A DNA stretch of 64,000 nucleotides from Liolophura sinensis (lineage: Eukaryota > Mollusca > Polyplacophora > Chitonida > Chitonidae): positions 21,154,017 to 21,218,016 of the forward strand of contig NC_088307.1 in NCBI RefSeq assembly GCF_032854445.1. The letters run 5' to 3'. Below are positions 12,101-43,227 of the stretch, in pieces. The first letter of the stretch is position 1. Every line of letters starts with the position of its first letter. Position numbers and translations under genes: made by a program. Under the pieces are notes generated by a model. It was not told the DNA's origin. It did not search any database and saw only the letters and a program-made list of their open reading frames with translations.

Positions 12101-15100
12101 TGTAGTGCACGTGACAAAAGCATGTGACACCCTTTTCAGATGTAGTTAACGTGACAAAAGCATGTGATTCAGGCATATGAACATTCAACCCTTACCATGT
12201 TCACCTGTCTCAAGGACGTCTAAAAACCACGTTCTAGCTCATCAACTTGACTGGTGTAAGCAATCCACTAAGTTCGAATCCAGAGTATTTCTCGAAATAC
12301 AAAGTAAATCCTTTCCGAATTGTATGAAGCGCGAATACAACAGCGCAGAACACACATACATGACAGTGACATGTGGCAGAACAGCCAAACATATGTGTCG
12401 GATTGAAGACAAGGAACATTTACCGCTTTTCTCATTCGCCTTAAATTTCCACTAGCATAAACCGGTTGTCAATCGCATGTTCCTACAAATTAATTAACCT
12501 CTTCTTTGATTTGGCTAACAAATAGTCCATGGCAATAACATAAATTGACGAAAAAGGGACATTTTCAAGGCCTCGACCGTAGTCGTCATGGTATACATAT
12601 AGACTTGGAAAATGGGATTACTTTTATGAACAGACGTGATTACCACGGGCCCTTTTTGGTTCAGAGGGCCGTAAAACAGGTTAGTTAATTTCGGGCACCA
12701 TACGTTTGACGTCGATTAATGCTAGGGACATTTAATGTGTGTGAACAGCGGTAAATGTTCCTTTATATCCGTCAGTTTGACAGATCTAGGGCTGTTTCAA
12801 AATACTGTTCAAAATGGATTTCCCAGGCTTGAATGAAGGTTAAACAAGATGATATAGTGGAAATGAAACTTTTAATCACTGTAAAAAGTAGCGACTTCTG
12901 ACTAGAACTGCGCAGCTTTCATGCCTATTGATTTGTCACAATACCTGCTCTAGTCAGAAAATTCTCACAGCACAAATCAAAATACTACTGGCTAAAAGCA
13001 TCTTAGTCTCTTTTGATTTTGCTCGTCGAAAAAAGGGACACATAAGACTTTAAAAGAGGAAGTTGTAACTTCCTCGCTTGGCGTTCAGCATGAAGGGGAT
13101 AGTGCAACGACTGGTTGACCCGGATCAGTATAATGGCTCGGGCGGGTCGGCTTACTTGCCTTCGGTAAGTCGTCTCAGTGAAGCAGCACTAAATAAAAGA
13201 GCAGTGGAAATCCGTCCTGCAACAAGGAGGCACATTACACGCACATGCACCCTAATGATTCCTTCGTCGTCATATGACTGAAAAATTGTTGAGCACGACG
13301 TTAAACCCCAAGCACTCACTCACTCACTCACTCGAAAAAAGGGAATGGTGGTGACGCCAGAAACATTGCGTTAAATCAATTGCCTTGGTGGGAGGTGAGG
13401 GCGTGGAGCGGAGTGGGGGTGGTGGTGGGGGTGGGGGGGGGGGGGGGGTGGCTGGGGGCCGTGCCCTATTAGTTAGCTTGTTAATGCAGCGTGAGAAGGT
13501 CCGGCAGCAACCTGCGGGTGGTTGTGGGTTTTCCAGGGCTCTGTCCGTTTTCTTCCCTAACATTTTAATGGCCGACGTCATGTAAATGAAATATTTTTTA
13601 ATTCTGCTTAAAACACCCTTGAAGTAAATATATAAATAAATAAGTAATTGTACTTCGAACTATCGGCATTATCAGCATGATAAAATTGGCAAATATCGAA
13701 CACATTGTGCATGTATAATTTTTTTTACTGCAATTTCTTTTTTTTTTTTCAGCGGCGTCCGTGTACTCGTTAAGGATAAATGGAGACTGAAGATCACACT
13801 AGCAGAGGAATACGCGCCGGACTACTACGCTTATCACGCCTATAATATTCACAAAGCAGACCAAAAACAGACTATCGACAACATTGATCGACATCAAGGA
13901 TATGGTGACCACCACAATGGCAAAAACAACCATAATTACAAGAGCAACCATCATGGGTATAACGATCCCCATGGAAAGCCCAACTATAGTGGGGATGACA
14001 ACCACAATGGCAAGAGCTACCCTTATAGGTATAATAACCACCGGGAAAAGCGCAACTATAATGGGAAAGAGAACTATCATGGCAAGGGCAATCCTGATAG
14101 GTATAGTTACCATCATGGAAAGCCCAACTACAGTGGGGATGACAACCATAATGGCGAGAGCAACCCTTATGGGTATAATAACCACCGTGGAAAGCCCAAC
14201 TATAATGGGAAAGAGAACTATCATGGCAAGGGCAATCCTGATATGTATAGTTACCACCATGGAAAGCCCAACTATAATGGGAAAGACAACCATAATGGCA
14301 AGAGCAGCCCTTATGGGTATAATAACCACCGTGGAAAGCCCAACTATAATGGGAAAGAGAACTATAATGGCAAGGGCAATCCTGATAGGTATAGTTACCA
14401 TCATGGAAAGCCCAACTATGGTGGGAAACACGGCTATAATGGCAAGAGCAACTCTGATAGGTATAGTTACCACCATGGAAAGCCCAACTATAGTGGGAAC
14501 ACAGCTATAATGGCAAGAGCAACCTTGATATATATAATAACCGTCATGGAAAGCCAAACTATAGTGGGGAACACAGCTATAATGGCAAAAGCAACTCTGA
14601 TAGGTATAGTTACCACCATGGAAAGCCCAACTATAGTGGGAACACAGCTATAATGGCAAGAGCAACCTTGATATATATAATAACCGTCATGGAAAGCCAA
14701 ACTATAGTGGGGAACACAGCTATAATGGCAAAAGCAACTCTGATAGGTATAGTTACCACCATGGAAAGCCCAACTATATTGGGGAACACAGCTACAATGG
14801 CAAGAGCAACCTTGATATACATAATAACCACCATGGAAAGCCCAACTATAGTGGGAAACACAACTATAATGGCAAGAGCAACCTTGATATATATAATAAC
14901 CACCATGGAAAGCCCAACTATGGTGGGGAACACAGCTATAATGGCAAGAGCAACCTTGATATATATAATAACCACTATGGAAAGCCCAACTATGGTGGGG
15001 AACACAGCTATAATGGCAAGAGCAACCTTGATATATATAATAACCACCATGGAAAGCCCAACTATGGTGGGGAACACAGCTATAATGGCAAGAGCAGCCT

Positions 15101-16448
15101 TGATATATATAATAACCACTATGGAAAGCCCAACTATATTGGGGAACACAGCTATAATGGCAAGAGCAACATTGATAGATATAATAACCACCATGGAAAG
15201 CCCAAGTATAGTGGGGAAGACAACCATAATGGCAAGAGCATCCCTGGCAGGTATAGTTACCACCAGGGAAAGCCCAACTATATTGGGGATGACAATCAGA
15301 ATGGCAAGAGCAACCATGATGGGTATCATAACCACCGGGAAAAGCGCAACTATAATGGGAAAGAGAACTATAATGGCAAGGGCAACCCTGATAGGTATAG
15401 TTACCGTGACAGAAAGCTCAGCCATAATGGGGAATACAACCATAATGTCAAGGGCAATCCTGATAAGTATAGTTACCATCATGAAAAGCCCAACTATAAT
15501 GTGAAAGACAACCAGAATGGCAAGAGGAACCCTGATAAGTATAGTTACCATCATGGAAAGCCCAACTATAATGTGAAAGACAACCAGAATGGCAAGAGGA
15601 ACCCTGATAAGTATAGTTACCATCATGGAAAGCCCAACTATAATGGGGAAGACAACCATAATGGCAAGAGCAACTCTGATAGGTATCATAACCACCATGG
15701 AAAGCCCAACTATAGTGGGGATGACAACCATAATGGCAAGAGCAACCTTGATATATATAATAACCATCATGGAAAGCCAAACTATAGTGGGGAACACAGC
15801 TATAATGGCAAGAGCAACTCTGATAGGTATAGTTACCACCATGGAAAGCCCAACTATAGTGGGGAACACAGCTATAATGGCAAGAGCAACCTTGATATAT
15901 ATAATAACCATCATGGAAAGCCCAACTATAGTGGGGAACACAGCTATAATGGCAAGAGCAACCCTGATAGGTATAGTTACCACCAGGGAAAGCCCAACTA
16001 TAGTGGAGAAGACAACCATAATGGCAAAAGCATCCCTGACAGGTATAGTTACCACCAGGGAAAGCCCAACTATGGTGGGGAACCCAGCTATAATGGCAAG
16101 AGCAGCCCTGATAGGTATAGTTACCACCATGGAAAGCCCAACTATAGTGGGGATAACAACCATAATGGCAAGGGCAACCTTGATAGGTATCATAACCACC
16201 AGGGAAAGCCCAACTATAGTGGTGAACACAACCGTATTGGCGGGATCAACCTTGATAGGTATAGTTACCACCAGGGAAAGCTCAACTATAGTGGGAAAAA
16301 CAACCATAATGGCAAAAGCATCCCTGACAGGTATAATAACCACCAGGGAAAGCCCAACTATGGTGGGGATGGCAAGAATAACCAGTATGGGTATAATGGC
16401 AAAGACAGCCCTAATGGCAAAGTTGTTGAACATACCTTGCATGTGTAG
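9147..16448 (+). CDS. SnoaL/DUF4440-like domain protein with 24-residue tandem repeats (5' incomplete)
   Basis: Three exons join in phase: 9147-9287 (CATTTTCAG acceptor, GTAAGG donor), 11496-11652 (TTCGTTTCAG acceptor, GTAAGT donor) and 13753-16448 (polypyrimidine plus CAG acceptor, TAG stop). The first two exons and the start of the third form about 125 residues of a SnoaL-like/DUF4440 (NTF2-fold) domain. It begins LEDQIRQLYADWRDASN, with the family-typical ALTSLYSDYAIVV and the terminal strand KDKWRLKITLAEEY. An acidic/Tyr linker follows, then about 34 units of 24 residues with core HGKPNYSG and HNGKSNPDRYSY, rich in N, Y, G, H, K, S and P and without Cys. At least one upstream exon is missing: exon 9147 begins mid-codon and I found no signal peptide. 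Two one-base losses in G runs (near 14495 and 14637) shift the frame; read literally, translation stops at 14653. A possible poly(A) signal AATAAA lies at 16700. The NTF2 fold often binds small ligands or dimerises. A secreted structural or adhesive role is inference. Confidence 0.8.
9330..9583 (-). mobile_element. SINE family A, near full-length, intronic
   Basis: Runs from the T-rich tail through TTTTACGCC, ATTTCACTTATACGACGGCG and the tRNA-like head GGGCCTCGGAGG. It lies in the first visible intron of the SnoaL-repeat gene, antisense to it. Confidence 0.9.
9605..9870 (+). mobile_element. Dispersed repeat family C
   Basis: Same blocks as 59880-60172: ATATGACGACGAGGAGTC, CATACACCGTGTG, CGCCAGAGTGCTGCTGAAG, AAGACATCAGACAC. 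Probably a SINE or other non-autonomous element; no coding frame. Confidence 0.55.
10785..10836. repeat. (ATTC)n microsatellite
   Basis: Imperfect run of CATT units inside the first visible intron of the SnoaL-repeat gene. Confidence 0.9.
11010..11336. repeat. Tandem repeat, 106-108 bp x 3, intronic
   Basis: Three copies, with GTTAGTATGGAGATTGCATT starting at 11041, 11147 and 11255. They are nearly identical apart from the length of an internal T run. They lie about 160 bp upstream of exon 11496-11652. Confidence 0.92.
11653..13044 (+). other. Intron of SnoaL-repeat gene, first part
   Basis: Intronic sequence with a short near-duplicate (ACCCTTTTCAGATGTAG, twice between 12088 and 12146). 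No internal exon was recognised. Confidence 0.55.
13045..13335 (+). mobile_element. SINE family B, 5'-truncated, (CTCA)n tail
   Basis: Matches 44815-45090 over its length: GGAAGTTGTAACTTCCT, GCGTTCAGCATGAA, GTGCAACGACTGGTTGACCC, GAAATCCGTCCTGC, GAGCACGACGTTAAACCCC, then CTCACTCA repeats. It is a second SINE type, unrelated in sequence to family A. Confidence 0.85.
13385..13462 (+). repeat. G-rich run with G-quadruplex potential
   Basis: Runs of three or more G's, including about 16 consecutive G's, in the intron about 300 bp before the repeat-bearing exon. Confidence 0.85.
13490..13652 (+). mobile_element. SINE family A, 5'-truncated, old
   Basis: Diverged 3' half: CAGCAACCTGCGGGTGGT, GGCTCTGTCC, AATGGCCGACGTCATGTAAA, then AAAT units. 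It sits just upstream of the last exon of the SnoaL-repeat gene. Confidence 0.75.
13895..16425 (+). repeat. Coding minisatellite, 72 bp x about 34
   Basis: GGAAAG-CCCAACTA anchors recur every 72 bp from about 13973 to 16347. The unit encodes 24 residues. Two adjacent double units at 14461-14603 and 14604-14746 are identical and each 143 bp long, one base short of two units, which shifts the sense frame. The array contains no stop over long stretches in other frames either, including the antisense strand. Confidence 0.95.
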
Positions 16449-16699
16449 AATACTAAAAATATATTTGGAAAGAGTTAAGGTGTTGTTGCTGTATGAACCT
16501 TATTTAATTAACGATGGAGCGGAACGCAAAATAACATCGATGGTCGCAGCTTTTGCGATTACCCCCTTGTTTCAACATAGCTTTGTTTTCTAAAAAATAT
16601 ACTCATGCCTTAAGAATCAATTGTTACCTTGTATTTGCTTTGCTTTGGGACAAAGGAAACATATGGTTATATGCACACAAAATACACTGGGTCATTCTC

Positions 16700-22719: not shown

Positions 22720-25200
22720 CGCTAGACTGCTAAACGGCCATTCTAAAATTCCCTGGCCAAAGAAAAGACGTCAACAATGAAGATACTGGGTACGTGGGAC
22801 GAGCTCAGCACCCCAAATTCAAACTCTCCCCACAACCAAATTATGTCACCCATCACCGTTGACGTCACCCCCTAGCAGGCTACTTAATTTGCGATCCAAC
22901 TGATGGGTCCTTCTGTGATCAAGAGGCTAGGAAACTCTGCAGTTAAAATCCACTGTCTTCCTTTCTGGCAAGTGCCTTATATCAGTTCACGAAATTAAGG
23001 GGTTTTGCCATTTTTCAGTCCTGCAACACCTCGCCAGTCTTACCATTGTTGTGCATCAGACCTACAGGACATAAAATTTGTTGTTTCGCCGTCAGCTGGT
23101 CACAGAGGATCGTAAGTAATAAAGGATACAAAATGCATTAAAAAAAAAATAAAAAAAAAAGAACAAACAAAACAGCAGGTCTGGCAATGAGGATTTATTT
23201 AGAATTGAACACTATGAAAGGAAGACTCAGAGAAATCACATCTTGCTGCAGAAATACTTGTTCCTTATGGTCCTGCAACAGAAATGAAAAACACATCCGC
23301 TTTCATAAACCATTATACTGTTATGCAGAATTAAACATGGCCAAAATCATAAAAATATTAAAACAAAATGACGAAAATGACCTATTTGTTGTTTTTTTTT
23401 TTTTTTAACATCTACCAAGGGCGATATGAATTTCATCCCTATACAGATGATCAGACACTAAAAAATAAACGGAATAAAAATTGAACTGAAAATCCACCTT
23501 TTTATTCTGTTCAGTGTTGATTTTTTTTTTATACTTCCTATTTTCAAGGCTTTTCCATCATGTAAATATATTTTCAGCAACGCAGATACAAGCAGAAGTT
23601 ACTTTTGTCACTGGTTGTGCGATCAGATTGTAAGATGTCTTCACTAAAAAAACTTCAGTGAGAGAGTTCATATTAATTCATCACTGCACACCAAGGGCTA
23701 CCTGTTGCAAGATTACCTGAACTTGGAAATTTACGTTCAATCTTCAATATGAGATTGTCGTAAACGTTAAGAAAATACAGGCCGAGTTGGCATTTCAAAA
23801 GTTGCACAAGATCACGTTGGATTGAACGTGTCAGAGTAGTGGGCTCTCGCCAACTAAGGCGGATAAAGAGCATCATTTTACAGTGCTTGCGAGACTGAAA
23901 ATGCATCTTGCACAATCAGGCTGGTTACCTCAACAGCACTGTTTTATAGTAGATACCGTAAAATCACCTCTTTTAGCCACTAAACTTTTTGTGAACTCGT
24001 GACAAGCCGATTCAGGTTATAGTGGCAACCTCAATGAAATTCAGTCCAGCTGATCAAACAGTAACCTTTCTAAGGATCTCCCAAAACGTATGTTTAATAG
24101 CTGAAGACATAATGAAAATATAATCGAGTATTCGATAAAAGGGACATAACTCAGCACAATTTTGTTGGACTTTGTTTATTTTGATACGCTTCCTACTCCA
24201 AGATCTGTCAATCTCGCATGTTGATTGGTATCTATTCATCAAATCCGTTCTGTTAACTGATGGAGCACAGTGAAAGACTAAAACCAAAGGGTTACCAAAT
24301 CTACATGCTTAGTTTTTTTTTTTTTGTAAACCCCATGCTCTTTCATCATTAATTGCACAACTTCTGAGTTCAGTTGTGTACTGTGCAATTCCTGAGATTG
24401 GCTCCTCTTAAGCTAGGGCAAAGCAACTTATTAAATCAACAAATTACCTTGGTCAGAATGATGCATAGTCAACCTCCAAGGTAGCCCACCTTCAAAATAA
24501 CACATCAGATAATTTAGTCTGAAACAAAAAATACACAAACTTGTGATTTTAAATGTTGAACCCCAAATAAATTTGTTAATACACTGCACTGGGATAAGCA
24601 ATTTTCAAGAGCTCGTCTCAGTTGACTCGGGAGTTGAAATCACAAAGATTCATAAAACTCACCATTGTAGGACATCATTGACAATCCCATGGAAGTTCTA
24701 CATGGCAATAAACTGCATCCATGCCTTAACAATTGAAGGTTCACATCCCGAACTGTTAAGGTGACGCTGTGACCGTGCATAAGGGAATTTTATGAAGTGC
24801 AACTCAAAACTATATTTTTTTTGAGAGTTTAATTGTGTGAAACAAAGCAATTTGTATATTAAACACCTAAATATTTTTGTTGAATTTACTGATTTTAGTG
24901 CACTTACATTAATTTGGGAGGTATAATGTTTCTCAAGCACTAAAATATGGTCCTATGCGTTCATGTACAAAAGATTACCTATGAAAAGGTCAAATATTTC
25001 TTTCATTTATTAAATCATTGTTCAAATACCATTCAAGAATGTTTCATTTGTACCCAGTTTTATTAAGTGTAAATCATCAACCTTAGGCCAGTAAGAATGT
25101 GGTCTCAGTCAAGACCAGCAAAGAGCTTCATCGCCCACTTAAAACCACCATGGAATGAGTAAACCCTTGTCCTTCGCCTGCCACTGCATCCCTGTCATTT
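22720..25200. other. Spacer, no gene recognised
   Basis: AT-rich with A and T homopolymers at 23140-23160 and 23392-23406. If the snoRNA host transcript continues past 26.4 kb it might end in this region, but no convincing poly(A) signal was chosen. Confidence 0.4.
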
Positions 25201-25212
25201 AAAGCTGCAGTC

Positions 25213-25640
25213 AAACCATTTAATCCTATGACCTCTGGCCATGGGCTTTCAATCCTGTGACCTCTGTGGCCATGGGCTTTCAATCCTGTGACCTCTGTGG
25301 CCATGGGCATTCAATCCCGTGACCTCTGTGGACATGGGCATTCAATCCTGTGACCTCTGTGGCCATGGGCTTTCAATCCTGTGACCTCTGTGGCCATGGG
25401 CATTCAATCCTGTGACCTCTGTGGCCATGGGCATTCAATCCTGTGACCTCTGTGGCCATGGGCTTTCAATCCTGTGACCTCTGTGGCCATGGGCATTCAA
25501 TCCTGTGACCTCTGTGGCCATGGGCATTCAATCCTGTGACCTCTGTGGTCATGGGCATTCAATCCTTTGACCTGTGGCTGTAAGCATTAAATCCTGTTAT
25601 CTCAATGGCCATTCAATCCTGCGACCATCACAACCATGGC
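25213..25640. repeat. Minisatellite, 31 bp x about 12
   Basis: Unit reads CATTCAATCCTGTGACCTCT followed by GTGGCCATGGG. It decays at the right end. Confidence 0.95.
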
Positions 25641-25794
25641 CATTCCAACCTACAACCTTCACCAAGGGCCAATAAAAAGCACAGAGGTCTAATAAGCCAA
25701 GGCATGTAGTGCAAGCCAAAGTATATGTACGCGTAAATCAGCTAGCTGAAATTGTCATTTAAAATGGATAAGTGAAGAGGTCCTCTATGAAAGT

Positions 25795-25992
25795 TGTGAA
25801 TGATACAACCCCACCAGAAGGTAAATGACATAGCCCTACCAGAATTTAACAATACAGCCCCACCTGGTCAACAATACAACCCTACCGGAAGTTGAACAAT
25901 ACAATCCCACCACAATGTGAATACAACCCACAAAGTGAACGATACAATCCCACCAGAAGGTGAACGATACAACCCCACCACAAGTCAAATAG
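25795..25992. repeat. Degenerate minisatellite, about 25 bp
   Basis: Repeated ATACAACCCCACCAGAAGGT-like units with variable spacing. Confidence 0.75.
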
Positions 25993-26509
25993 TCTTCCAC
26001 ATAAGTATAGTCATATGCCACATGTATTCCAATTTGAGCCTACATTTCAACAGCCAAGCGCAATTCTTCCAGAAACAGTCTTAACAGTGTTATTCTAAAG
26101 GGAAGTAACTCTGGGCACCTAACAAAAGTAGGACAAGGGAACAGGAATGTGTGGCATTATTTTTTTTCAATTGGAGAAGAGGGCTCTTCCGTTGCACGAC
26201 ATACAAGATTTCCATTTGTTTAATGAAATGCTGGGCCAATACGCCATTCCACATTTGTCTACAATAAGCCATTCCACATCTGTATACTTGCCAAAATAAA
26301 CTTCAAGCTGTACACATGCCATCTAAGAAACTGTATAAAGACCACGTGAAGTTGCAAATAACAAAAATATAGAACATGTACCCTGGTTGATCCAGCCATA
26401 TTGTTTCATGAGACAGGAGCCTTGAGACACTGGGCAATTTGAAGGTTGTGCTTATGTACCAGAACTTCAGGGCACCATCGTCCCCGCCCTAAGTGTGTAC
26501 ATGGGCTTG

Positions 26510-26581
26510 ACTCATCAGTTGACAGTTCGTGATCACAGAGTATCATCTGTCCCTATCTGTCAAGTTTCTCATCATCTGAGT
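26510..26581 (-). ncRNA. Box C/D snoRNA, U74-like
   Basis: Terminal stem ACTCA/TGAGT, C box ATGATGA one base inside it, and D box CTGA directly before the 3' stem. The internal guide GATAGGGACAG pairs (one G:U) with the conserved 28S stretch CTGTCCCTACC. Counting five bases from a degenerate D' box points to the C that I recall as human C3820 (U74). The inferred 3' splice site lies 80 nt downstream. Confidence 0.7.
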
Positions 26582-26640
26582 AAAGCTCTACCCCCAACCT
26601 ACATCAACCAAACCTTTATTATTACTGATCAAACTTTGAG

Positions 26641-27450
26641 CAACCATTCCCATCAACGCCAGGACTATCGAGTCTGTGAAACCCGGGCCATTATGGTGAT
26701 CTAACTGCTGGGGTCACCATTCCCATCAAACCCAGGACTATCGAGTCTGTGAAACCCGGGCCATTATGGTGATCTAACTGCTGGGGTCACCATTCCCATC
26801 AAACCCAGGACTATCGAGTCTGTGAAACCTGAGGCCATTCTGGTGATCTAACTGCTGGGGTCACCATTCCCATCAAACCCAGGACTATCGAGTCTGTGAA
26901 ACCTGAGGCCATTCTGGTGATCTAACTGCTGGGGTCACCATTCCCATCAAACCCAGGACTATCGAGTCTGTGAAACCCGGGCCATTATGGTGATCTAACT
27001 GCTGGGGTCACCATTCCCATCAAACCCAGGACTATCGAGTCTGTGAAACCCGGGCCATTATGGTGATCTAACTGCTGGGGTCACCATTCCCATCAAACCC
27101 AGGACTATCGAGTCTGTGAAACCTGAGGCCATTCTGGTGATCTAACTGCTGGGGTCACCATTCCCATCAAACCCAGGACTATCGAGTCTGTGAAACCTGA
27201 GGCCATTCTGGTGATCTAACTGCTGGGGTCACCATTCCCATCAAACCCAGGACTATCGAGTCTGTGAAACCCGGGCCATTCTGGTGATCTAACTGCTGGG
27301 GTCACCATTCCCATCAAACCCAGGACTATCGAGTCTGTGAAACCCGGGCCATTCTGGTGATCTAACTGCTGGGGCCACCATTCCCATCAAACCCAGGACT
27401 ATCGAGTCTGTGAAACCCGGGCCATTCTGGTGATCTAACTGCTGGGGCCA
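26641..27450. repeat. Minisatellite, 73 bp x 11
   Basis: CTAACTGCTGGGGTCACCAT recurs every 73 bp from 26701. Copies alternate between CCCGGGCCATTATGG and CCTGAGGCCATTCTGG variants, indicating higher-order duplication. It lies in an intron of the snoRNA host, next to the U74-like snoRNA, but lacks C and D boxes. Confidence 0.96.
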
Positions 27451-27479
27451 CAATGTCAGTAAAGCCCCATCGGGCCACC

Positions 27480-27725
27480 ATTTTTGCTCAATTCAGGACA
27501 TTCTTTTTGTTAAACCCCAGGCTGCCACGTTGGTCAGTAGCCAAGCCATCCTGATGATCAACTCTCAAGGCGATAATGTTGATCATACCTGGGCCAGCTT
27601 GCTGATCCAACCCCAAGACTATTATGTTGATCATACCCCAGGTCATCATGTTGATCCAACCACAAGGCGATTATGTTCATCAAACTCCTGACCATTATGC
27701 TGGTCAAGCCCAGAAACCATTAACC
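27480..27725. repeat. Degenerate repeat, about 35 bp
   Basis: Loose repetition of GTTGATCATACCCCAGG-like units following the 73-bp array. Confidence 0.6.
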
Positions 27726-28033
27726 ATAAATCTATACAGATACTTGTATAATTGATCACGAAGTCAACCATGCACTGAAGGCTCCACAGCTGTATTGTGT
27801 TTCGCATTTAACATTTTTAGTACATTCACATTTTGATTTTTTAATCCTGCTTTAATTTTCGTACCTGAACATAACCACTAGACACCTGCTCCCCCATCCT
27901 GAAAATAGAATTGAAAAAGGTCAATGACTACATTCCAACCATACTGTTTTTTCTACAAATCTTCCAACTCCTGTTGTTAAAAACAAAAAATGACTGTAGT
28001 CATACATGTAGAGAACTGTAATAATTTTTAGCG

Positions 28034-28112
28034 ATGTGCTCAGAAAAGTTTGGAACGGTAAGTTTTGATATCACATGACATCATTTGGCAGAATGTTAAC
28101 ATCATTGCACAT
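28034..28112 (-). ncRNA. Box C/D snoRNA candidate, target unassigned
   Basis: Stem ATGTGC/GCACAT (6 bp), C box ATGATGT (one base off consensus) and D box CTGA. The strong acceptor TTTTTAACAACAG at 27972-27971 lies about 63 nt downstream, as expected for an intronic snoRNA. The sequence before the D box (CGTTCCAAACTTTT) was not matched to an rRNA site from memory. A related copy lies at 28733-28805. Confidence 0.6.
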
Positions 28113-28732
28113 ACATCAACAAAAATACAACACAGAAATTTGATTACTGGTTTAAAGCCATACTACGAACTTTTCACTGGCACAAAGTCAGTTTTATGGG
28201 GGGTGGGGGGACCCAAGGAGATTCATATTGACCCAAGGTTTCAATTTCTGGGTTATCAGTGACGTTTCACTCTGCAAGTAGGATAAACCTAACATTCTTC
28301 CCCAAAAAAGGTCCTTATTTTTTTACAGATTAATAGAAGTCATAAAAATGCACTTTTGGAGCTCAAACTCCTAGTAAGTTATCAATCTGTCTTGTAGAGA
28401 AACCTTGCAACACCTTTATCAGCACTAGATCTTTAAAAAATAAATTGGGACAGTTCGCAACTTTGTCCCGGGTGAAATTTTACGTTATTTACCATGCATG
28501 CAAACCTTACCTAGATGGTTGAAAGCTGACCAGGGTTCAAGTGGTCATCTTCAATAAGATGTCTATTACAAACTCATGGACTTCAATCCACCAACTGCTA
28601 GAGGTGCAAGGCCTGAACGTACAACTTTCATGCTGACCTGGAATTCAACAAAAAGTTGTTTTTTTTTGTAACATCATCCACTGTAGATCTTACAGATGCA
28701 GTGAAAGATATGTAATTCATATGGTCAAAGAA

Positions 28733-28805
28733 GTGCTCCGAAAATTTGGAACGGTAAATGTTGATATCACAACGTATCATTTGGCAGAATGTTTCATCAC
28801 TGCAC
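28733..28805 (-). ncRNA. Box C/D snoRNA paralogue, degenerate D box
   Basis: Shares AACATTCTGCCAAATGAT, GTGATATCAA and ACCGTTCCAAA with 28034-28112. C box GTGATGA is good, but the D box position reads CGGA and the stem is only GTGC/GCAC. Possibly a dying duplicate. Confidence 0.45.
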
Positions 28806-28825
28806 ATCAAAGAGACAGATGCCAC

Positions 28826-28950
28826 CAGCATGATGGTGGAAGGAAACCGGGCATATTCCAGGGAAACCCACAACCATCTGCAGGTTGCTGCCAGACCTTC
28901 CCACGTGAGGCCAGAGAGGAACTCACAGCAGCTGCACTGGCGACACGCTG
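28826..28950 (-). mobile_element. SINE family A fragment
   Basis: Internal part only: GGAAACCGGGCATATTCCAG, AACCATCTGCAGGTTGCTG, ACCTTCCCACG. Confidence 0.8.
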
Positions 28951-29404
28951 ATGGGTCATCGCATGGTGTTGGCGTGCTATCCACCTCGGGCACGGAGGCC
29001 CCCACCATCAACCTACTCCGTCAATACCTTAGCCACCAAGACCCAGTATCTAGGCAGAAAAACACTGATATCCTCCACTAATGGCAGGACTGAAAATGGC
29101 ATGTCCACGTAATTTGTAGAGAAAAGCATCTTAACCACTTGCCTACAACCAACTGTGCAATTTTGTGTATAGTCACATTCATTGGACTGATTTATGCCAC
29201 ATACAGGGAAGAGAATCTATTTATCAAAACCAGCTGATATTTCTTCTAGAAGCTAACTCCCACCACCCCCACCAAGGCATTAGTGAAATGATTAGTTTTT
29301 AGCCATTTTTGTCAAAGATTACATGTAAAGTCCTGATTTCCCTTTAACTACGCTCAAATCAGTTGAAAATTCTCATCCCTGCGTAATTTCCACATACAGT
29401 ATGT

Positions 29405-29545
29405 AAGATGGTGGTCAGTTTTATGGGTGGTGTAAATCTGAAGTGTTGGAGATAAACCACTGCCGTCTGGCAAGTTACTGACAAACTTACCCACATGAGA
29501 TATACAGATATGCGCATTGTATTGGAGGGAGACTAGTGGTCATCT
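29405..29545 (+). mobile_element. Dispersed repeat family D
   Basis: Shares GGCAAGTTACTGACAAACTT and the GACTAGTGGTCATC end with 22567-22715 and 31262-31420. Confidence 0.5.
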
Positions 29546-29860
29546 ACATCCTCAAATGGTCAGACAAGTTTCACTGACCATTTCTCGTCACCAAGAAACA
29601 TGAATCGTAACCGGAAAATCGGCAAAATTTCTGTGCGTGACTGGGTCATCTACGTCCTCAAATGGTCCGACAAGTTTCACTGACCAGGTCTCGTCCCCAA
29701 GAAACATGAATCGTAACCGGAAAATCGGCAAATTTTCTGTGTGTGACTGGGTCATCTATGTCCTCAAATGGTCAGACAAATTTCACTGACCATTTCTCGT
29801 TACCAAGGAACCATGAATAGTAACAGGAAAATCGGGAAATTTCCTTTCCGTGACTGGGTC
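29540..29860. repeat. Tandem repeat, about 105 bp x 3, spanning a host exon
   Basis: CCTCAAATGGTCAGACAAGT recurs near 29550, 29656 and 29762. The rightmost unit contains the candidate host exon 29804-29859; the other two carry diverged equivalents of it. Confidence 0.88.
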
Positions 29861-29928
29861 TGCAACTGTACCTAGCATGTTCTAGTGTTTTGTAGGCGCT
29901 ATACGGTGTTGAGACGACAGGAGTACAA

Positions 29929-30005
29929 GAGACAGTCAGATTATGAAGCTCAACATGAGAAGTCAGAGAGATTCCCATTTGTTCTTATGTGATCATCATA
30001 GTCTC
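29929..30005 (-). ncRNA. Box C/D snoRNA, U79-like
   Basis: Stem GAGAC/GTCTC, C box ATGATGA (exact), D box CTGA, and internal D' CTGA. The guide before D' (TGGGAATCTC) is complementary to the conserved 28S GAGATTCCCA. The fifth-base rule selects the second A of GAGA, which I recall as human A3809, the U79 site. A candidate 3' splice site is at 29861-29860, 68 nt downstream. Confidence 0.75.
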
Positions 30006-30149
30006 AAGCACAAATCTTCCTAAACCCTGCTACTTGCAATTTGGTAATTAATGTAGCTGGCGACTTTGGGGATACTTTCACAAAAATTTACTCATTTGAC
30101 TGGAGCGTTACGTTTAACTGAAGAATACTTCATGAGTACAACTAAGGCC

Positions 30150-30270
30150 AACATTATGGTTGTGAAAATCAGGCGGAGATTGGTGGAAACCCACAGGCCG
30201 CCTGCATGTTGCTGGCAGACCTTCCCATGTTCAACCAGTGAAGAAACAATCATAAAATGGAACATGAACT
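30150..30270 (-). mobile_element. SINE family A fragment, old
   Basis: Diverged internal part: AAAATCAGGCGGAG, GAAACCCACAGGC, TGCTGGCAGACCTTCCCATG. Confidence 0.65.
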
Positions 30271-30639
30271 CACAACGGCCACACTCGTACCAGCACCAGT
30301 ATGAAGAATGAATCACAAAGGACATGTAGCAATCTAAACATATATTCAGTCACTAAAATGGTACACAGTTCGGGAACAGAACTATAATTTTTTTTTTTAC
30401 ATACTGCCATTGTTGGGCATCTATCTGATGCATGTTCATAGCTTCAGTCATCCAACAGCCAAATAATTATTAAAATTATTAAATCTAACAACAGTTAACA
30501 CTAATGAAATGAAACATTCTGTTCAGGACCCAATCATTTCCACTGGCACCCACTCATTTAGCCACCTCTGGGTCCCAGAGATTTACTTCAATAAAAACCT
30601 ATCAACATCACTGGGCTTGTGTTATTTGCACCTATCACG

Positions 30640-30795
30640 TTTTGACTGATTTATTTATCAAGCATTCTAATGGGGGGAACCCACAAAAACCCCATGACCA
30701 TCCGCAGGCTGCTGGCAGACCTTCCCATGTACAGCTGGAGAGGAAGCCAGTATAGGCTGAACTTGAACTCACAGTGACCGCATTGGTGAGGACAT
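30640..30795 (-). mobile_element. SINE family A, partial
   Basis: TGACCATCCGCAGGCTGCTG, GACCTTCCCATGTACAGC, GAACTCACAGTGACCGCATT. It retains the B-box region but not the A-box end. Confidence 0.8.
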
Positions 30796-31047
30796 CATGT
30801 TTTGCAAAATATCATGTGACCCTGTAATGACCAATGGGAACTAAGAATTACTGAGTATAATAACCAACACTGTTACTCAAGCACATTGAATTACTCTGGC
30901 AAAGTTTACCTTCAGGTTGAAATTCACAGGACAGAAGAGCTGGCACTCCTCGATTCTTACCCAGCTACCACCTGAAACGAAATAGGGAGTTGTTAGAAAT
31001 TGGATGTAAAAAGGATGGGAAATGCACAGATGTACGATGAAAATCAC

Positions 31048-31135
31048 ACTTGCCTCAGTTCGGTGAATAGTGGTAAAATACAGTCATCATACCAACGGTC
31101 AAGAGTAGCAAATATAGTTCACATCATTGGCAAGT
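31048..31135 (-). ncRNA. Box C/D snoRNA, U77/U80-like, copy 2
   Basis: Stem ACTTGCC/GGCAAGT (7 bp), C box ATGATGT, C' box ATGATGA and D box CTGA. The internal guide ATATTTGCTACT is a perfect 12-base complement of the conserved 28S AGTAGCAAATAT, the region of human A1521 (U77/U80). It ends 75 nt before the acceptor at 30973-30972, an ideal distance for intronic snoRNA release. Confidence 0.82.
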
Positions 31136-31261
31136 AGTAAACAAGTCAATCAGCTAATATTCAGGCAGCCCTTCTTTCAATGCCTCACACCAACTCTTAC
31201 TCTTCCTCATAACGTAGCAATTTAAATGCAGAAATTAGTTTTGTTCTTCAAACTGTAAGGA

Positions 31262-31420
31262 TAGTCTGATTAATGTTTTACGCCATGATTATAGGAAATC
31301 ATCACTTATACAATGGACACTGTTTTTATGGGCGAAGAAGACCAGAGTGCCTTTACTGACAGACATACCCATATGTGACAGACAGATATGCACACCATGG
31401 CTGGTAGAAGACTAGTGGTC
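31262..31420 (+). mobile_element. Dispersed repeat family D
   Basis: Contains GAAGAAGACCAGAGTGCC, TACTGACAGACATACCCA and ACTAGTGGTCATC as in the other copies. Confidence 0.45.
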
Positions 31421-32711
31421 ATCAACGAATTGAGAATTATGCAAATCAGCAATACAAACACTATTGATCACATATCACCAAGGCTCCACGAGCAGTGAGA
31501 GCAAGGGAAATCCACAAATTCCGTCCTCAGCCGGGTTTGAACTCGTACACTGACTGCAACCCCAAGGAGCACAAGGGTGAAGACTCGAATCTTCTATGCA
31601 GTTAACGTAACAGCCACAGAAACACACACTGGTGTCTATACATCAAAACGGTTGCATTACTTGGACTGGAGATAAAATAAATTACTCCAAGGGGAGAAAG
31701 TACCAGGTCGTCGTACCTTGCTTCAAGACTGTCAACAGAACCACAAGTCTGTGAAGGAATGAAGCTAAACATCCCCCATGCAGTGGATTGCCACTTGACA
31801 CCATTTTAAGTCCCCAGAATCTATGGATGAAAGAAAACAAACAAAATAGTGTACAGGATATGTGAAAGATGTACTTGTCCATTTCTGCAAATTTGCATTC
31901 TTTAACCTTTGCAAATTTGTATTCTTCAACATCTGCAAATTTGCATAAACATTTGATGGCAAGTTCCAAAGCAGATCTGTCAAAAGCTACATCCATTATA
32001 CTTTGTCTTGCAGAAGGACATTTTACACTTCTGGGTCCAGCTGTTCAAAAGTGTATTAAGACGAAAGCCCTTTATTAAGTTATATAATACTTATATTAAC
32101 TAATATTCACACTTTGTATTAGGTCAAGACACGTATTAAGATTCAAACCTAGCTTCACATTTATGCACTTTTGAACAACTGGCCCCGGCATACTGGTTAT
32201 ACCCTAGACTTCTTTGCACACATCGAAGAGCAATTTCGAAAGCGACTTATCTGCTTAATGTTTCCTCATTAAGGTAATAACTTTGTGCTTTGATAATACA
32301 GTTATTCTGAACATCAGTGTTTCAGTGTCAATGCAGACGAATGTCCTCAAAATATGCATAAATCACTAGGTGAACGTGTCGATAGGTTGACAAAATACTG
32401 TTGGTCATTTTGCAAAACTTGTGAAAATACTTAGGAATTTGCCAAACAATACATAATGTTAATATGCTCCGATATAAATTGAGAGTTTCCAAAACCAGGA
32501 CCAAGATTCATTATGCTATTGGATCACGAGCAGGTAAGTTTTAGTTTTTAAAATAAAAAGAGCTTTATACAGGACATTTATAACCTTACTGTATAACTTA
32601 ACTTTTTAGTAGCCACAATCTGTTTAAGAGTTTGGATCACACTATTTCATATTGTATTTCTTTCTCCTGTGATTTTCACACTCGCACGATATTTGGTAAG
32701 GAACATTTGTG

Positions 32712-32797
32712 CTTGCCTCAGTTCGGTGAATAGTGGTAAAATACAGTCATCACACCAACGGTCAAGAGTAGCAAATATAGATCACATCATTGGCAAG
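32712..32797 (-). ncRNA. Box C/D snoRNA, U77/U80-like, copy 1
   Basis: Nearly identical to 31048-31135 (two internal differences). Stem CTTGCC/GGCAAG with the same boxes and guides. It lies 160 nt after the candidate exon 32958-32988 and about 90 nt before the acceptor-like site near 32622. Confidence 0.82.
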
Positions 32798-33291
32798 TCT
32801 AGTTCCATCAACACAATAAATCATCTACAAAGCTCTGGACGTTTCATTTTTTTTCTTTTGGTTGATTGGGTAAGCTTTAAATAATACGTGCATTAAAATC
32901 TCATTTTTAAGAGTCCTTGGTTTATGTTCACAGACATACAAAAGTTTTGTAAAGTACCTGTTCTCAGCCACATGGACATCTCTGCATTCTGTTGGGGGGA
33001 AAAAAAGAGAGAAAAACATAAGCAATCAGCTATCATTATTAGATTACGCCATGCTCAAAAACATTTCCTTCACAAAGTCCATACAAAAATAGGCCCATGT
33101 CAATGTGGCTTCTATGCTTTTAAGTGATTGGTTTTCTTAAATTCAGTAGAAAAAATTAAAAAAAACAAACAAACACTGAAGTGCTAACATCTGGAAATGG
33201 CAAAATTTAGTACCAAAAAAATCCTGAATTGTTCAATCTTTGTTGAAGACTAGCAATCCAAGATAATACCCGTTGTTCTTTAATGTAACTT

Positions 33292-33369
33292 TGATGTCTT
33301 TCAGCTAGAGCTAATAGTAAAAATGACAATCATTGATTATCAGAAAGTCTCTATCATCATTAGACATCA
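33292..33369 (-). ncRNA. Box C/D snoRNA, U44-like
   Basis: Perfect 8-bp terminal stem TGATGTCT/AGACATCA, exact C box ATGATGA, D box CTGA, and an internal CTGA. The guide before D (TATTAGCTCTAG) complements the conserved 18S CTAGAGCTAATA. The fifth base selects the A that I recall as human A166, the U44 site; human U44 carries a very similar ATTAGCTCTA before its D box. Confidence 0.88.
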
Positions 33370-34433
33370 CAACAGATTCGACGACTTCTGTCATCTTCTA
33401 ACTGTAACTTGATGCAAGCTCAGTTTGCTGAGTACAAATATACTTCCAAATCACCACGACAACTAGCATTGGAATGCGTAATTACCAACTGCCTCAAACT
33501 TTTACCAACATTAATGAATGGAAAATACTCAGTTAAGGCCCATGGCCAAGATAGGCATAGTGCCATCTGGATGCTGTCAAAGGGAAAATAACTCTGATGT
33601 AGCCAAATGAACAATGCCTCTGAGTTATCCTTCCTTGGACAACATTCTGATGGCCCTATTCCTATCTTGGTCATGTTCCATAACCAAGTATTGTCTCCCA
33701 CTGTACTTGCGATTTCCAGATACAAGTTTCAGAATTCTTCACTTTTATCAGGTAAATACAATAGGTCCCCATTCTTGTGTATCATGGGGCCATAAATTCA
33801 CTGTCACCAAAGTCCCAACCATACCAACACCTAAGATGGAAATATGTGAGGACTAGGTTGCTGTGTTTCCTTGTGATTTCCACGAGCTCTTCGGTGTCAT
33901 CCCCTCAAACACATCACTTTTCTAATTTTTTCATTCGTTAAAAAAGGAAAAAGTACTATGTTCTTCACACTATATTTGTTCCTGTGGTACCGTCATCCAT
34001 GAGTGTTCTGCCCTTACCTGGTTGTGGCAGCTCATCATACTTCTGTGATATCTTTTCATGCGTTGTTCAAAGCTCTGGATTAAAATTTCCAGAACATGAA
34101 CTTGTTGGGTCAGCAACTGGATGTTTACGCCACTAGACCATTTGAATTGTTGTGACAGAATGTGTTGTCATTCATATTTGGCAAGCTTCACTCCGAGAAA
34201 CATGAATGAATTGACATTAGTAGTGATATAGAAATACAGCGACCTAGTATTCACAAGACAGCCCCCAGATGTACAATACTCCTGAAAGGAGAGACTTAGG
34301 AAATAGTCTTACGAAATGTTGGATCCTGTAATTCGTCATCACTTCTACTTCTGCCATCTTCATCCAGCACCAAAAGCAAGATATTTACTTCTCAAATCAT
34401 CTGAACAGAAGAACAAAAGTACAACAACTTATT

Positions 34434-34545
34434 TGAGTGGTGTTTTATGCCATGCTCCAAAATATTTCTCTTATATATGACGGTGGCCAGCAGTATGGTA
34501 GGTGAAAACCAGGCAGAGCCCCTGAGAAAGGCACGACCATCCGTA
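34434..34545 (-). mobile_element. SINE family A fragment
   Basis: GTGTTTTATGCCATGCTCC, TATATGACGGTGGCCAGCAG, AACCAGGCAGAGCCCC. Confidence 0.8.
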
Positions 34546-34569
34546 AATACAATAAAGTTAGACTACATT

Positions 34570-34802
34570 CATACTTTCCACGAATTCATGCGTACAAGTT
34601 ACTGAGTTAATTCATGAGTACAAGTTACTGAGTTAATTCATGAGTACAAGTTACCGAGTTAATTCATGAGTACAAGTTACCGAGTTAATTCTATGAGTAC
34701 AAGTTACCGAGTTAATTCATGCGTACAAGTTACCGAGTTAATTCATGAGTACGAGTTACCGAGTTAATTCATGAGTGCAAGTTACCGAGTTAATTCATGT
34801 GA
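34570..34802. repeat. Minisatellite, about 26 bp x 9
   Basis: TTCATGAGTACAAGTTACCG followed by AGTTAA, with few substitutions. Confidence 0.95.
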
Positions 34803-35027
34803 TCAAAACTAAGAACTACAATTTGGAAGAATGATGCAACATTTTCAGTTTAAACTACTATTTCAGTTTAAACTGTACTTTAATCTACTTGACCAGTTAA
34901 TGTTGGTCTCTGCCAGACGCAGACCACAAGTCATAAACTCCTTAAAACTAGGCCATATACTACCGGGCATTCATAAAACTTCACTTGAAAGCCCAACTAG
35001 TCAGAATACAGATCGCTGTTTTATGAC

Positions 35028-35165
35028 ATTCAAGAATATTAAACTTGTACGATGACGGCCAGTATTATGGTGGGAGGAAACTGGGTTAAGCCCAGTTGAA
35101 ACACCAGACTATACACAGGTTGCTTGCAGACCATCAAACTTATGACTGGAGAGGATGGCAGAAAA
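35028..35165 (-). mobile_element. SINE family A fragment
   Basis: TTCAAGAATATTAAACTTGT, ACGGCCAGTATTATGGTGGG, CACAGGTTGCTTGCAGACC. Confidence 0.75.
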
Positions 35166-35344
35166 AGCTGCACTTAATGGAGAAGAAAACTTAAAAACAT
35201 GACACTATAAGCTGAAAAGAGCACATTTTTTTTCTATCTGGTGGTGCCTGCTGCATAATTTTGCCATTTTTCCTTGCCATACACGTAAAGCCTGAAAACC
35301 GCAAAGCTGGCATAGATCGCTGAATCCATTGCGTCCACCATCTT

Positions 35345-37060
35345 TAACACCCTGTAATTTATGCTGGGGATGTGTTGCCTCTCAGCCAAAGACATTTGTT
35401 AAAACTGCCGGCTTGCTCGAGTAAACTCGGAACCTGCGTCCAACATTCCGGTTTCTAAATCATCAAGCGGAAAACGAACTGTACGATTTGCTACCTTCTG
35501 TGAAGATAAGTTCTACCAGAAATGTACGAACTGCACTTCGACTGTTTCTGACACCAATTCTCCTCCTAACACAGACGACTTCAGGACTAGTTCTAAGGCA
35601 AAATGAAGTCACCCATAGCAGATTTTGGCAGTGACTTTATTTATAATTTGTCAACTTGAAGTACATATTAGAATTTTCTTTACGGGTTGCACCTTTGAGA
35701 AAAAGCATACTCTTTTCAATGGTATTTGATATTTAAATTTTCTTTTCCTTTCAACTAATAGTGATGGCAATGGTGAGAGGCTCTTAGATTGTGATGCGCT
35801 AGCACACTAACCACTAGGCCAACATCAGGCTACAGACTTCATTCCCCCCACCCCTTGACAAAATATTCCCCACCTGTCAATTTCTATGAATCAAAATATT
35901 CTTGCAAGGCCTACCACATATCTATATAGATATCCTATCTATTTTTGTTTCCCTGTCACTGCCAGGGCATTTCTTATCCCCTGCCCAAACATCGGAGCTC
36001 ATTATTTCATTCTTTTGTTAGAAACTGCCATAACATTAATATGAAATAATGACACATGTTCTGCTGCTCTTAACGATTATCCAAAATATTAGGGCAGGAA
36101 ACAAGGAATCAAACGTCACTAGCCTACACTAAAACCCATGCAAGGCACCATATGATACTGTCTGTACACATTTAGGGATTCTTTTAAAACTAGTAAAATA
36201 CACAAACTGTGCCAACTTAAAAATGGCTGTACTGTCTCAGAATTGGTGATTGGTGAATCATCATGATCATTCAGAATGAATTCTTCATAGACAAGTTAGC
36301 CACGGCGATTTCAAAAGTTGATGCTGATGCTCTACTTGAAATGAAATTTACGAAAAAAAAATAACTAAAAAAACAAACAAACCATAAAATAGTAACTGAT
36401 TCTGGAGGCATGGTATCTCTGATGATATACAACCAGATATATACCATCAACCCGGCTTGTCTCACATTTCGAACACACGAAAGATACTTGACTTTTTACT
36501 GGGCCTTCATGAACATCTTGAGCATACCTCGTCCGATTTTGTAGGGCTCCTTGCTTTTATCAACACCAATCCAGTCAATAATAAGATTTGTTCAATTTAC
36601 ATTTAAGCTTTATGCCATTGAATAATGCACAATGAATGTGACTCTAACTTTATTTAGGTGAAACATAAAAGTATAAACAACTTTATCTCGAAAAGAAAAT
36701 CGGAACCATTCGCATACGAATGGTGGGACACGCGTGATCTATAGGCGGTGAAGTATCAGGTGCGAGTTTGGACTTAACTCAGAGAGAGAAAAACAAAATA
36801 CGAATTTGATAAACCCTGCCGAATGTTCTGAACCGTTCTTTTGGTAATGTACTGTACAGTGAACATCGATTATCGGATAAGACAACATATTTTGACTCAC
36901 ACCTCACCTCTCTCGGTGCACGGATCTTTCTCGAGTGGTACCTTCTCGAACCACGTGCGTTCTACTCAAGATAAGTTATCCTAACGACTGAATGTAACAA
37001 TCCCATTCATTGGCTGGCAGACTGAAGTCTCCAAACGGAAATTTCACAATAAGGTTTACT
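35345..37060 (-). other. Probable first intron or promoter region of snoRNA host
   Basis: No conserved exon recognised. A short ATG-initiated segment at 35283-35341 ends at a possible GTATGG donor, but its reality is uncertain. Confidence 0.35.
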
Positions 37061-37067
37061 CTCGTAC

Positions 37068-37088
37068 CCTACAAACGGTAGGAAAAGG
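37068..37088 (-). promoter_or_regulatory. Candidate 5'TOP first exon of snoRNA host
   Basis: On the minus strand a CCCTTTTCCTACC tract is followed 20 bases on by a GTACGA donor. 5'TOP starts with very short first exons are typical of snoRNA host genes. Position is by eye only. Confidence 0.3.
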
Positions 37089-37306
37089 GAAATAAATCGT
37101 TTCAGATGATTCTTTTCTTTGATTTTACGTTTTTATTGCGCATAATTTACATGGAAAATTAGAGGTTTGGCTAAAAATCTGGACCACAAAACACTTCCGG
37201 GCGATAATTTTTAGCCAATGGACGTCCTTGTAGTGTACTTGTTGTCTTAAGTTGTAAAGTCGTAAATTCCTCGGTCTTGTTCATGGGTTTGCTTTCGTTT
37301 TCTGGC

Positions 37307-37678: not shown

Positions 37679-38522
37679 GTAAGTAAGATGATAGTTGTGA
37701 TAGATCTAGTGCGTTTAATCTGAAGAATTGTTTTAATATTTGACAGCGTACCGGCGGGATGCAAATCGCACCACATGACATTCCCACGTGTGGAAGACTT
37801 TGACAAATGTGGCATTTTGATCAGTGGTATCACACTTCATCAGAAACTGCGAACTGCTCCTTGCATTTTCTTGCCTGTAGTTTTCGTTTATATGTAATTT
37901 TCTGACTTTATTTTAGAAACTTGAATGGCTTTATGAAGATGTTAATTTCACGATCTTCATATTTTTTCAACTTACATACTAGGGAGGTTAGTCTTCTGGA
38001 TCAGTTTGAGCAAGTACACGTATCACTAATGAATCAAGGAACTTTCAATGTTATCACTGAACTGCGAGGTGTCCAAAAAAGATGATCTAATTTTATAGAT
38101 GTATTGGGAAAAGGGCGTAGCAACTTGTACATGAAAGCCAGCAGTCCAGTTACCAAGTCTAGATGTGATATTTAGGAAATTTGCCAATAACTCTCAATTT
38201 TATGGTTATCTTAGTATATTTAGATTTTTATAGGTGTTACTACTTCACATGGTTTAATGCAGTTTAGTCCTCCTCCTGCATTTATAGGTTTATTGGTATT
38301 GCTAGATTACTAGTTCAAATTACCATCTCTGCCGAATTTTGGGGAATTTGAAAGTTGGTTGATATCATGTGGTAGTGTAGATTCATGGAAGACCCAGCTT
38401 TTCGCAATGAACTATTGAAAAGGGGCTCATTAACTAACAAAAGAACAGACCTGCAGTGTGGTCTTTACAGTTGCTTACATTTTGTTTAATTCAGCGTTTC
38501 ATTAACTTTGTTCTTGTCAGAA

Positions 38523-43227
<4,705 letters not shown>

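Follow-up and report, generated by a model that had tools for sequence, protein, structure and literature searches.

A probable snoRNA host gene with GAS5-type cargo in the genome of the chiton Liolophura sinensis

Introduction

Exon divergence makes the noncoding host genes of small nucleolar RNAs (snoRNAs) difficult to trace. In GAS5, the closest described counterpart of the locus presented here, the snoRNAs lie roughly 70-100 nucleotides (nt) upstream of the 3' splice site. The chicken gas5-like gene holds nine of the 83 guide families for which Table 1 of PMC2653536 gives sites, guide ends and hosts, and according to the same source snoRNA order varies already among vertebrates. Promoters of zebrafish and human snoRNA host genes, GAS5 included, carry terminal oligopyrimidine (TOP)/TCT starts beside canonical ones, as described in the relevant part of PMC6954239. 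The UHG-type genes of Drosophila resemble the present locus as noncoding hosts with several intronic snoRNAs; Uhg4, the one of them compared here, differs in its cargo, the snoRNAs named in the pertinent passages of PMC9710044 being Psi28S-2949 and Or-aca5. The literature searched, with most subscription journals outside its scope, held no report of an invertebrate GAS5 by title or abstract start. Here we describe, in 64,000 nt of the genome of the chiton Liolophura sinensis (contig NC_088307.1, positions 21,154,017 to 21,218,016; hereafter the window, with coordinates counted from its first letter), ten box C/D snoRNA-like elements that span 23616-36294 on the minus strand, eight of which correspond by guide sequence to six vertebrate GAS5 types and two of which are orphans.

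We read the region as a snoRNA host gene, spliced and probably noncoding, that has a common origin with GAS5 and runs on the minus strand from ~37.09 to 23.5 kb (~13.6 kb), and put the probability of this reading at roughly three in four. There is good support for a multi-snoRNA host that carries most of the GAS5 cargo, and common ancestry with GAS5, recognisable only by the snoRNA cargo, is likely.

A minus-strand cluster of box C/D elements

A scanner for a C box, the D-box motif CTGA and a terminal stem with at least four Watson-Crick pairs returned ten matches on the minus strand of the window, all at 23.6-36.3 kb, and a single plus-strand match, outside 22-40 kb. For the interval 23501-37100 of the minus strand, 100 dinucleotide shuffles gave 0.46 matches on average and never more than 4, against the ten observed. 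Nine of the ten scanner matches were retained, each with the C box, D box and closing terminal stem of a box C/D snoRNA; the match at 31527-31646 was dropped as weak (120-nt span, TTGATGT C box). The tenth element of the set, at 28733-28805, was added from Rfam alone, the scanner having missed it because its D box reads CGGA. At gathering threshold, Rfam gave four matches in the whole window, all on the minus strand: SNORD47 at 28036-28110 and 28733-28805, and SNORD24 at 31051-31132 and 32714-32795. Low-scoring matches in the region (mir-1803, MIR2871, SNORD93, SNORD37, PK-repBA and others) were taken as chance.

The elements are listed below in their minus-strand order, 5' to 3', with the evidence for each in brackets. 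Sites follow human ribosomal RNA (rRNA) numbering, which we take to be A166 in 18S and A391, A1521, A2350, A3809, C3820 and C3866 in 28S rRNA for the guides considered here.

36232..36294, minus strand: X1, box C/D snoRNA-like element, C box ATGAAGA (scanner)
33292..33369, minus strand: U44-type snoRNA (18S A166), 8-bp terminal stem (scanner and guide)
32712..32797, minus strand: U76-type snoRNA copy a (28S A2350), D' guide ATATTTGCTACTC then TTGA (Rfam and guide)
31047..31136, minus strand: U76-type snoRNA copy b (Rfam SNORD24, 45.9 bits)
29929..30005, minus strand: U79-type snoRNA (28S A3809), D' guide ATGGGAATCTCT then CTGA (guide and subthreshold Rfam)
28733..28805, minus strand: U47-type snoRNA copy a (28S C3866), degenerate D box CGGA (Rfam SNORD47, 53 bits)
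28034..28112, minus strand: U47-type snoRNA copy b (Rfam SNORD47, 57 bits)
26510..26581, minus strand: U74-type snoRNA (28S C3820), D' guide AGATAGGGACAG then ATGA (guide and subthreshold model)
24613..24684, minus strand: X2, box C/D snoRNA-like element (scanner)
23616..23690, minus strand: U81-type snoRNA (28S A391), D' guide GAACTCTCTCA then CTGA (guide and subthreshold Rfam)

Two of the types are duplicated. The U76 copies (copy a scores 45.2 bits with SNORD24, over gathering) are identical in 84 of 86 aligned columns, and their 150-nt flanks agree at 49.4% and 48.0%, against 50.2% (standard deviation 2.7) for random sequence; the snoRNA alone is therefore conserved or copied, without its flanks. 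Between the U47 copies, 63 of 74 aligned columns agree, and their flanks reach 49.7% and 55.8%; a SNORD47 search of the 609-Mb assembly, in which 71 of 129598 first-look candidates were scored, found no further match.

The remaining assigned elements score below their models: U44 reaches 13.6 bits with SNORD44 (gathering 40), U79 33.4 bits with SNORD79 (gathering 47), U81 31.6 bits with SNORD26 (gathering 44) and U74 18.9 bits with snoMe28S-Cm2645 (gathering 48), a model with which it has AGAUAGGGACA in common. Because these family scores are subthreshold, the putative identity of the four rests on guide plus box. The U44 guide, TATTAGCTCTAG followed by CTGA at the D box, contains the sole exact TTAGCTCTAG of the window, and the guide and D' box of U81 match nematode ceN114. 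Exact U44, U79, U76, U47 and U81 motifs occur inside the cluster elements and nowhere else in the window; the U74 motif of the cluster has one mismatch to the form searched for, of which an exact copy lies at 61233 (minus strand). The best models for X1 and X2 were snoU54 (23.8 bits, gathering 35) and sn2317 (26.9 bits, gathering 50), respectively.

The cluster is real, and it is larger than first noted. The original prediction had described seven stem-closed elements between 26400 and 37088; the minus-strand elements and their stems are borne out by the scanner and the shuffles, but they number ten, eight inside that interval and the others continuing to 23616. Its guides for 18S A166, 28S A3809 and 28S C3820 are present as U44, U79 and U74. 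U47, U76 and U81 had been overlooked there, and the two U47, two U76 and U81 elements add, on the chicken families tabulated in the source cited above, to the support that U44, U79 and U74 give to a GAS5-like cluster.

Comparison with vertebrate GAS5

Six of the nine families listed for the chicken gas5-like gene (U44, U76, U79, U47, U74 and U81) are found in the cluster, and the guide lies at the same end as in the chicken table for all six, at the D box in U44 and at D' in the other five. Under a random draw in which the two orphans count as misses, the chance that at least six of eight families come from a set of nine in 83 is P = 5.8e-6; it is 1.4e-5 when the draw is limited to the 72 rRNA-site entries of the table (GGgCD1-72) and 2.1e-4 for at least five of eight families with the U76 pair left out, all families being weighted alike so that these values are guides to size only. 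The short candidate exons and the TOP-like tract close to the putative 5' end, described below, would be further likenesses to GAS5, as would the arrangement of probably one snoRNA per intron.

The locus also differs from GAS5. It lacks U77/U80, U80 lying elsewhere in the genome, and U75 and U78 were not recognised in the window; U76 and U47 are duplicated, two elements are orphans, snoRNA order is not significantly kept and the neighbouring gene is BiP. For 28S A1521, which the original prediction had counted among the guides of the cluster, the exact guide CATAGTTCA, which we take to be that of U77/U80, was found nowhere in the window in a search for exact matches only, and the claim was abandoned. 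Separately, a one-mismatch form of the U78 guide, with CTGA after it, lies at 53839 on the minus strand, ~17 kb upstream of the cluster, and is not a scanner match.

The division of U24 and U76 between two hosts

Searching the genome with the Rfam SNORD24 model, with 59 of 247351 first-look candidates scored, gave three matches over cut-off: the window pair and one in an intron of a ribosomal protein gene on the same contig, ~550 kb from the cluster. Another five matches fell far under the cut-off.

C13:20634799-20634877, minus strand: the genome's true U24 (L020), in an eL8/RPL7A intron (SNORD24 model)

The host exons are recognisable by the Pfam domain Ribosomal_L7Ae in one exon and by L7a PDB chains that match two joined pieces. 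The window pair resembles U24 in scoring over SNORD24 gathering and in sharing the antisense stretch TATTTGCTA. It differs in the position of the D' box: in the RPL7A intron CTGA follows directly after TATTTGCTAT, whereas the window pair reads TATTTGCTACTC then TTGA. As the spacing differs, the rule that the methylated base lies five nucleotides from the box shifts the target by 2 nt, from C2352 to A2350, which is the target of U76. A D' box that targets 28S C2352 and an RPL7A host, the marks of SNORD24, are thus found in L020 and not in the window pair, and the two elements at 31 and 32.7 kb are accordingly called U76 here, against the SNORD24 label that Rfam gives them. The Rfam model does not tell U76 and U24 apart; the spacing of the guide does. 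The chicken table assigns U24 to RPL7A and U76 to the gas5-like gene (PMC2653536, Table 1). To our mind, this division of U24 and U76 between two hosts is the strongest single argument for common ancestry with GAS5.

Guide complementarity to rRNA

The species' own ribosomal DNA (rDNA) gave no match in the assembly with a 69-base 28S stretch, the 5.8S model or an exact 20-base pattern, a result that does not prove absence as the assembly search skips very common words. Proxy rRNAs were used because the own rDNA was not found. For 28S these were L006 and L004, eukaryotic 28S contigs filed under bacterial genomes and confirmed by Rfam as large-subunit (LSU) rRNA, and L003, a contig end that reads as 28S, from a record assigned to an endosymbiont of the annelid Escarpia laminata; for 18S they were two contigs from a viral collection (L016 and L019), judged by eye to be 18S from the fetching pattern onward. 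The patterns by which the proxies were fetched contained the targets of U44 and U79 and part of that of U74 (CTGTCCC); of the matches, those of U76 and U81 alone do not depend on how the proxies were chosen. For U79 and U74, what the contigs show is that the 28S pattern belongs to eukaryotic LSU rRNA; they do not provide a blind match. As an aside on such contigs, L003, L011, L012 and L015, all filed under bacteria, have one end that reads as eukaryotic 28S from TAGCCAAATGCCTCG, which we take to be the R2 insertion site; these ends are probably host-derived R2 retrotransposon contamination.

Under the 5-nt rule, a guide beside the D or D' box with complementarity to proxy rRNA was found in U44, both U76 copies, U79, U74 and U81. 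On L006, the D' guides pair at sites whose predicted methylated base is A for U76, A for U79, C for U74 and A for U81, with scores of 12.9, 11.5, 13.8 and 11.2, respectively. In controls with 40 shuffled guides each, means were 9.0-9.6 and maxima 12.6 and 12.3 for the U76 copies, 12.5 for U79, 13.9 for U74 and 12.7 for U81. The putative sites of U79, U74 and U81 on this contig make their case by expected place, not by score: the predicted bases of U79 and U74 lie 11 nt apart (2694 and 2705), a distance matched by the chicken positions in the table, 3319 and 3330. U76 copy a has a 12-bp match to L006 with a predicted A, U74 a 12-bp match, CTGTCCCTATCT, on L006 and on the L003 fragment with a predicted C, and U79 a predicted A on L006, L004 and the L003 fragment; U44 pairs over 12 bp with the 18S fragments (CTAGAGCTAATA), again with a predicted A. 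The U47 site is altered in L006, and the identity of U47 therefore rests on its Rfam match. On L006, no guide of X1 outscored all of its 40 shuffles, and neither X1 nor X2 found a target on the L006 or L004 28S or the 18S fragments.

Candidate exons, splice sites and promoter

Acceptors were scored with a crude, hand-set weight matrix, taking the best site 45-110 nt after the D box and a cut-off score above 3. Six of the ten elements have such a site, at 47, 110, 83, 99, 69 and 99 nt past the D box. The mean best acceptor (2.88, against -0.16 for random same-strand sets) was reached by 0.2% of 5000 sets. Acceptor-like sites had been claimed 63-95 nt downstream of nearly all elements; the enrichment stands, but it comes from six of the ten, over a range of 47-110 nt. 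The candidate features of the host gene are as follows.

37080..37092, minus strand: candidate 5' TOP/TCT start, pyrimidine tract TTTCCCTTTTCCT (by position)
36908..37088, minus strand: candidate exon 1, donor GAGAG/gtgagg (score 6.0), stops in all three frames
30910..30971, minus strand: candidate exon after U76b, 62 nt, open in one frame (acceptor 6.6 at 83 nt, donor 3.6)
28511..28637, minus strand: candidate exon after U47a, 127 nt, stops in all three frames (acceptor 6.8, donor 5.9)
27865..27970, minus strand: candidate exon after U47b (acceptors 7.0 and 7.8, donor 4.0)
24448..24518, minus strand: candidate exon after X2, 71 nt (acceptor 6.6 at 99 nt, donor 5.4)

After U47b, the alternative acceptor at 27898 yields a 34-nt candidate exon that is open in two frames. 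Random best donors have a 75th centile of 3.81 and a 90th centile of 5.35; the donors of exon 1, the U47a exon and the X2 exon lie above the latter, and those of the U76b and U47b exons are ordinary, the U76b donor falling under the 75th centile. The tract TTTCCCTTTTCCT is one of six pyrimidine tracts of at least 12 on the minus strand at 23.5-38.5 kb. By eye, the putative intron before U74 holds minisatellite-like tandem repeats at 26650-27450, and a shorter array lies at ~34600-34800.

In the mechanism that we propose, RNA polymerase II would start at the TOP-like promoter near 37.09 kb, and splicing would join the short exons. The debranched introns would be trimmed to box C/D small nucleolar ribonucleoproteins (snoRNPs), which may guide fibrillarin to 2'-O-methylate the human-equivalent positions 18S A166 and 28S A391, A2350, A3809, C3820 and C3866. 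Ancestry with vertebrate GAS5 would be kept in the linked cargo, snoRNA order, gene neighbours and probably the exons having changed.

Alternative explanations

Several observations weigh against a GAS5-related host gene, the first group of them touching the elements themselves. One U47 copy has the degenerate D box CGGA, U44, U74, U79 and U81 are all under their Rfam gathering scores, and on L006 U76 alone scores above all 40 shuffles, while the divergent L004 28S yields sites for U79 and U74 and not for U76 or U81. The guides, moreover, were assigned knowing the GAS5 set, so the P value of the comparison is not blind. A second group concerns the cargo and its setting. Against the snoRNA order of human GAS5, 10 of 15 pairs are concordant (P = 0.23, not significant) and the longest increasing run is 4 (P = 0.29). 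The window has no U75 motif at up to one mismatch and no exact U78 motif, and the five one-mismatch matches to the latter all fall outside the cluster. A U80 search in which 61 of 91565 first-look candidates were scored gave three matches over cut-off, all on other contigs (two on C8, one on C5) and each carrying the guide CATAGTTCA. The upstream neighbour is BiP/HSPA5, not ZBTB37, which we take to be the human GAS5 neighbour. Lastly, four of the ten elements (U76a, U79, U74 and U81) have a weak acceptor or none, and two of the four candidate exons that were translated (exon 1, the exon after U47a, the 62-nt and the 34-nt exon) are open, the 62-nt exon in one frame and the 34-nt exon in two. 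Our confidence in a GAS5-type host is tempered because some proxies were fetched by target sequence and these two candidate exons are not closed.

Part of this evidence would be consistent with convergent assembly, in which mobile snoRNAs gathered in a broadly expressed noncoding host independently of GAS5. Ongoing mobility of snoRNAs within genomes, and a 'constrained drift' of their locations, are argued for across eukaryotes in the passages of PMC3511168 that bear on them, and the position of U80 elsewhere in the genome and the order of the snoRNAs, not significantly conserved, would fit such a history. The U76 copies, which differ in 2 of 86 columns between unrelated flanks, suggest that copying without flanks may occur. 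However, a random draw would assemble at least six of eight families from the nine-in-83 set with a probability of only ~6e-6, and the placing of U24 in RPL7A and of U76 in the cluster repeats the arrangement tabulated for vertebrates. We regard convergent assembly as improbable.

The snoRNAs might also be real while their host is protein-coding, or while several transcripts carry them, a view with which shared ancestry of the cargo would be compatible. The weak acceptors of U76a, U79, U74 and U81 and the open frames of the 62-nt and 34-nt candidate exons speak for it. Against this, six scanned minus-strand open reading frames (ORFs) of the region are without a Pfam domain, the candidates for exon 1 and the U47a exon have stops in all frames, and all ten elements lie on one strand, with the lone plus-strand scanner match far enough away to fall outside 22-40 kb. 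On balance, a coding or multiple host appears unlikely, slightly more so than convergent assembly.

That the elements other than the four Rfam gathering matches are mostly chance look-alikes or dead copies, as the subthreshold scores of U44, U74, U79 and U81, the targetless X1 and X2 and the CGGA box of U47 copy a might suggest, is very improbable, given that each assigned guide adjoins a D or D' box within a stem-closed C/D frame, that exact U44, U79, U76, U47 and U81 motifs are confined to the cluster within the window, and that ten elements stand against a shuffle mean of 0.46.

Genomic neighbourhood

The gene upstream of the candidate host is divergent from it, with ~1.4 kb between the two.

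38490-43227, plus strand: BiP/HSPA5 gene, HSP70 exons and KDEL end (ORFs, Pfam)

Among the best 120 of 7912 relatives, matched to the C-terminal part of this BiP, named entries include Pinctada at 84% and Pecten at 83%, with lynx, scorpion and rotifers at 81-83%. Elsewhere in the window, long low-complexity frames are open on both strands at 13640-16499, with an (H)HGKPNYSG-type repeat unit on the plus strand, and a repetitive frame of 610 codons with a QRVPI(D/E)SG-type repeat occupies 61018-62850 on the minus strand. A fragment of a DUF3504 domain (Pfam, 5.1e-9) lies at 2741-2992 on the minus strand; this domain is often found in mobile-element-derived genes.

Age of the GAS5 grouping

On the reading of the locus as a host gene related to GAS5, the cluster suggests that the GAS5 grouping dates back to the ancestor that molluscs and vertebrates share. 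The original prediction had placed the linkage of the snoRNA set in the bilaterian ancestor; this is plausible, but it draws on one genome plus the vertebrate literature, with an order that is not significantly conserved. We consider it fairly probable that the protostome-deuterostome ancestor had a noncoding, TOP-type host of U44, U74, U76, U79, U47 and U81, and that this host kept its linkage through the cargo only, against the view that snoRNA locations are free to drift; GAS5 would accordingly not be a vertebrate invention. The ancestral chromosome may be the same as well, since the cluster, BiP and RPL7A share one contig in the chiton, and the human genes GAS5 (1q25), HSPA5 (9q33) and RPL7A (9q34) presumably lie on two arms of one vertebrate paralogon.

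The interest of the locus lies in the long-standing linkage of cargo in a noncoding host, as against the snoRNA mobility described in the part of PMC3511168 discussed above. There is no direct conflict with that prior published study, because it reached deeper than Bilateria. If the shared ancestry holds, GAS5 would be among the oldest traceable long noncoding RNA genes, and ancestral functions of GAS5 beyond the hosting of snoRNAs would become testable.

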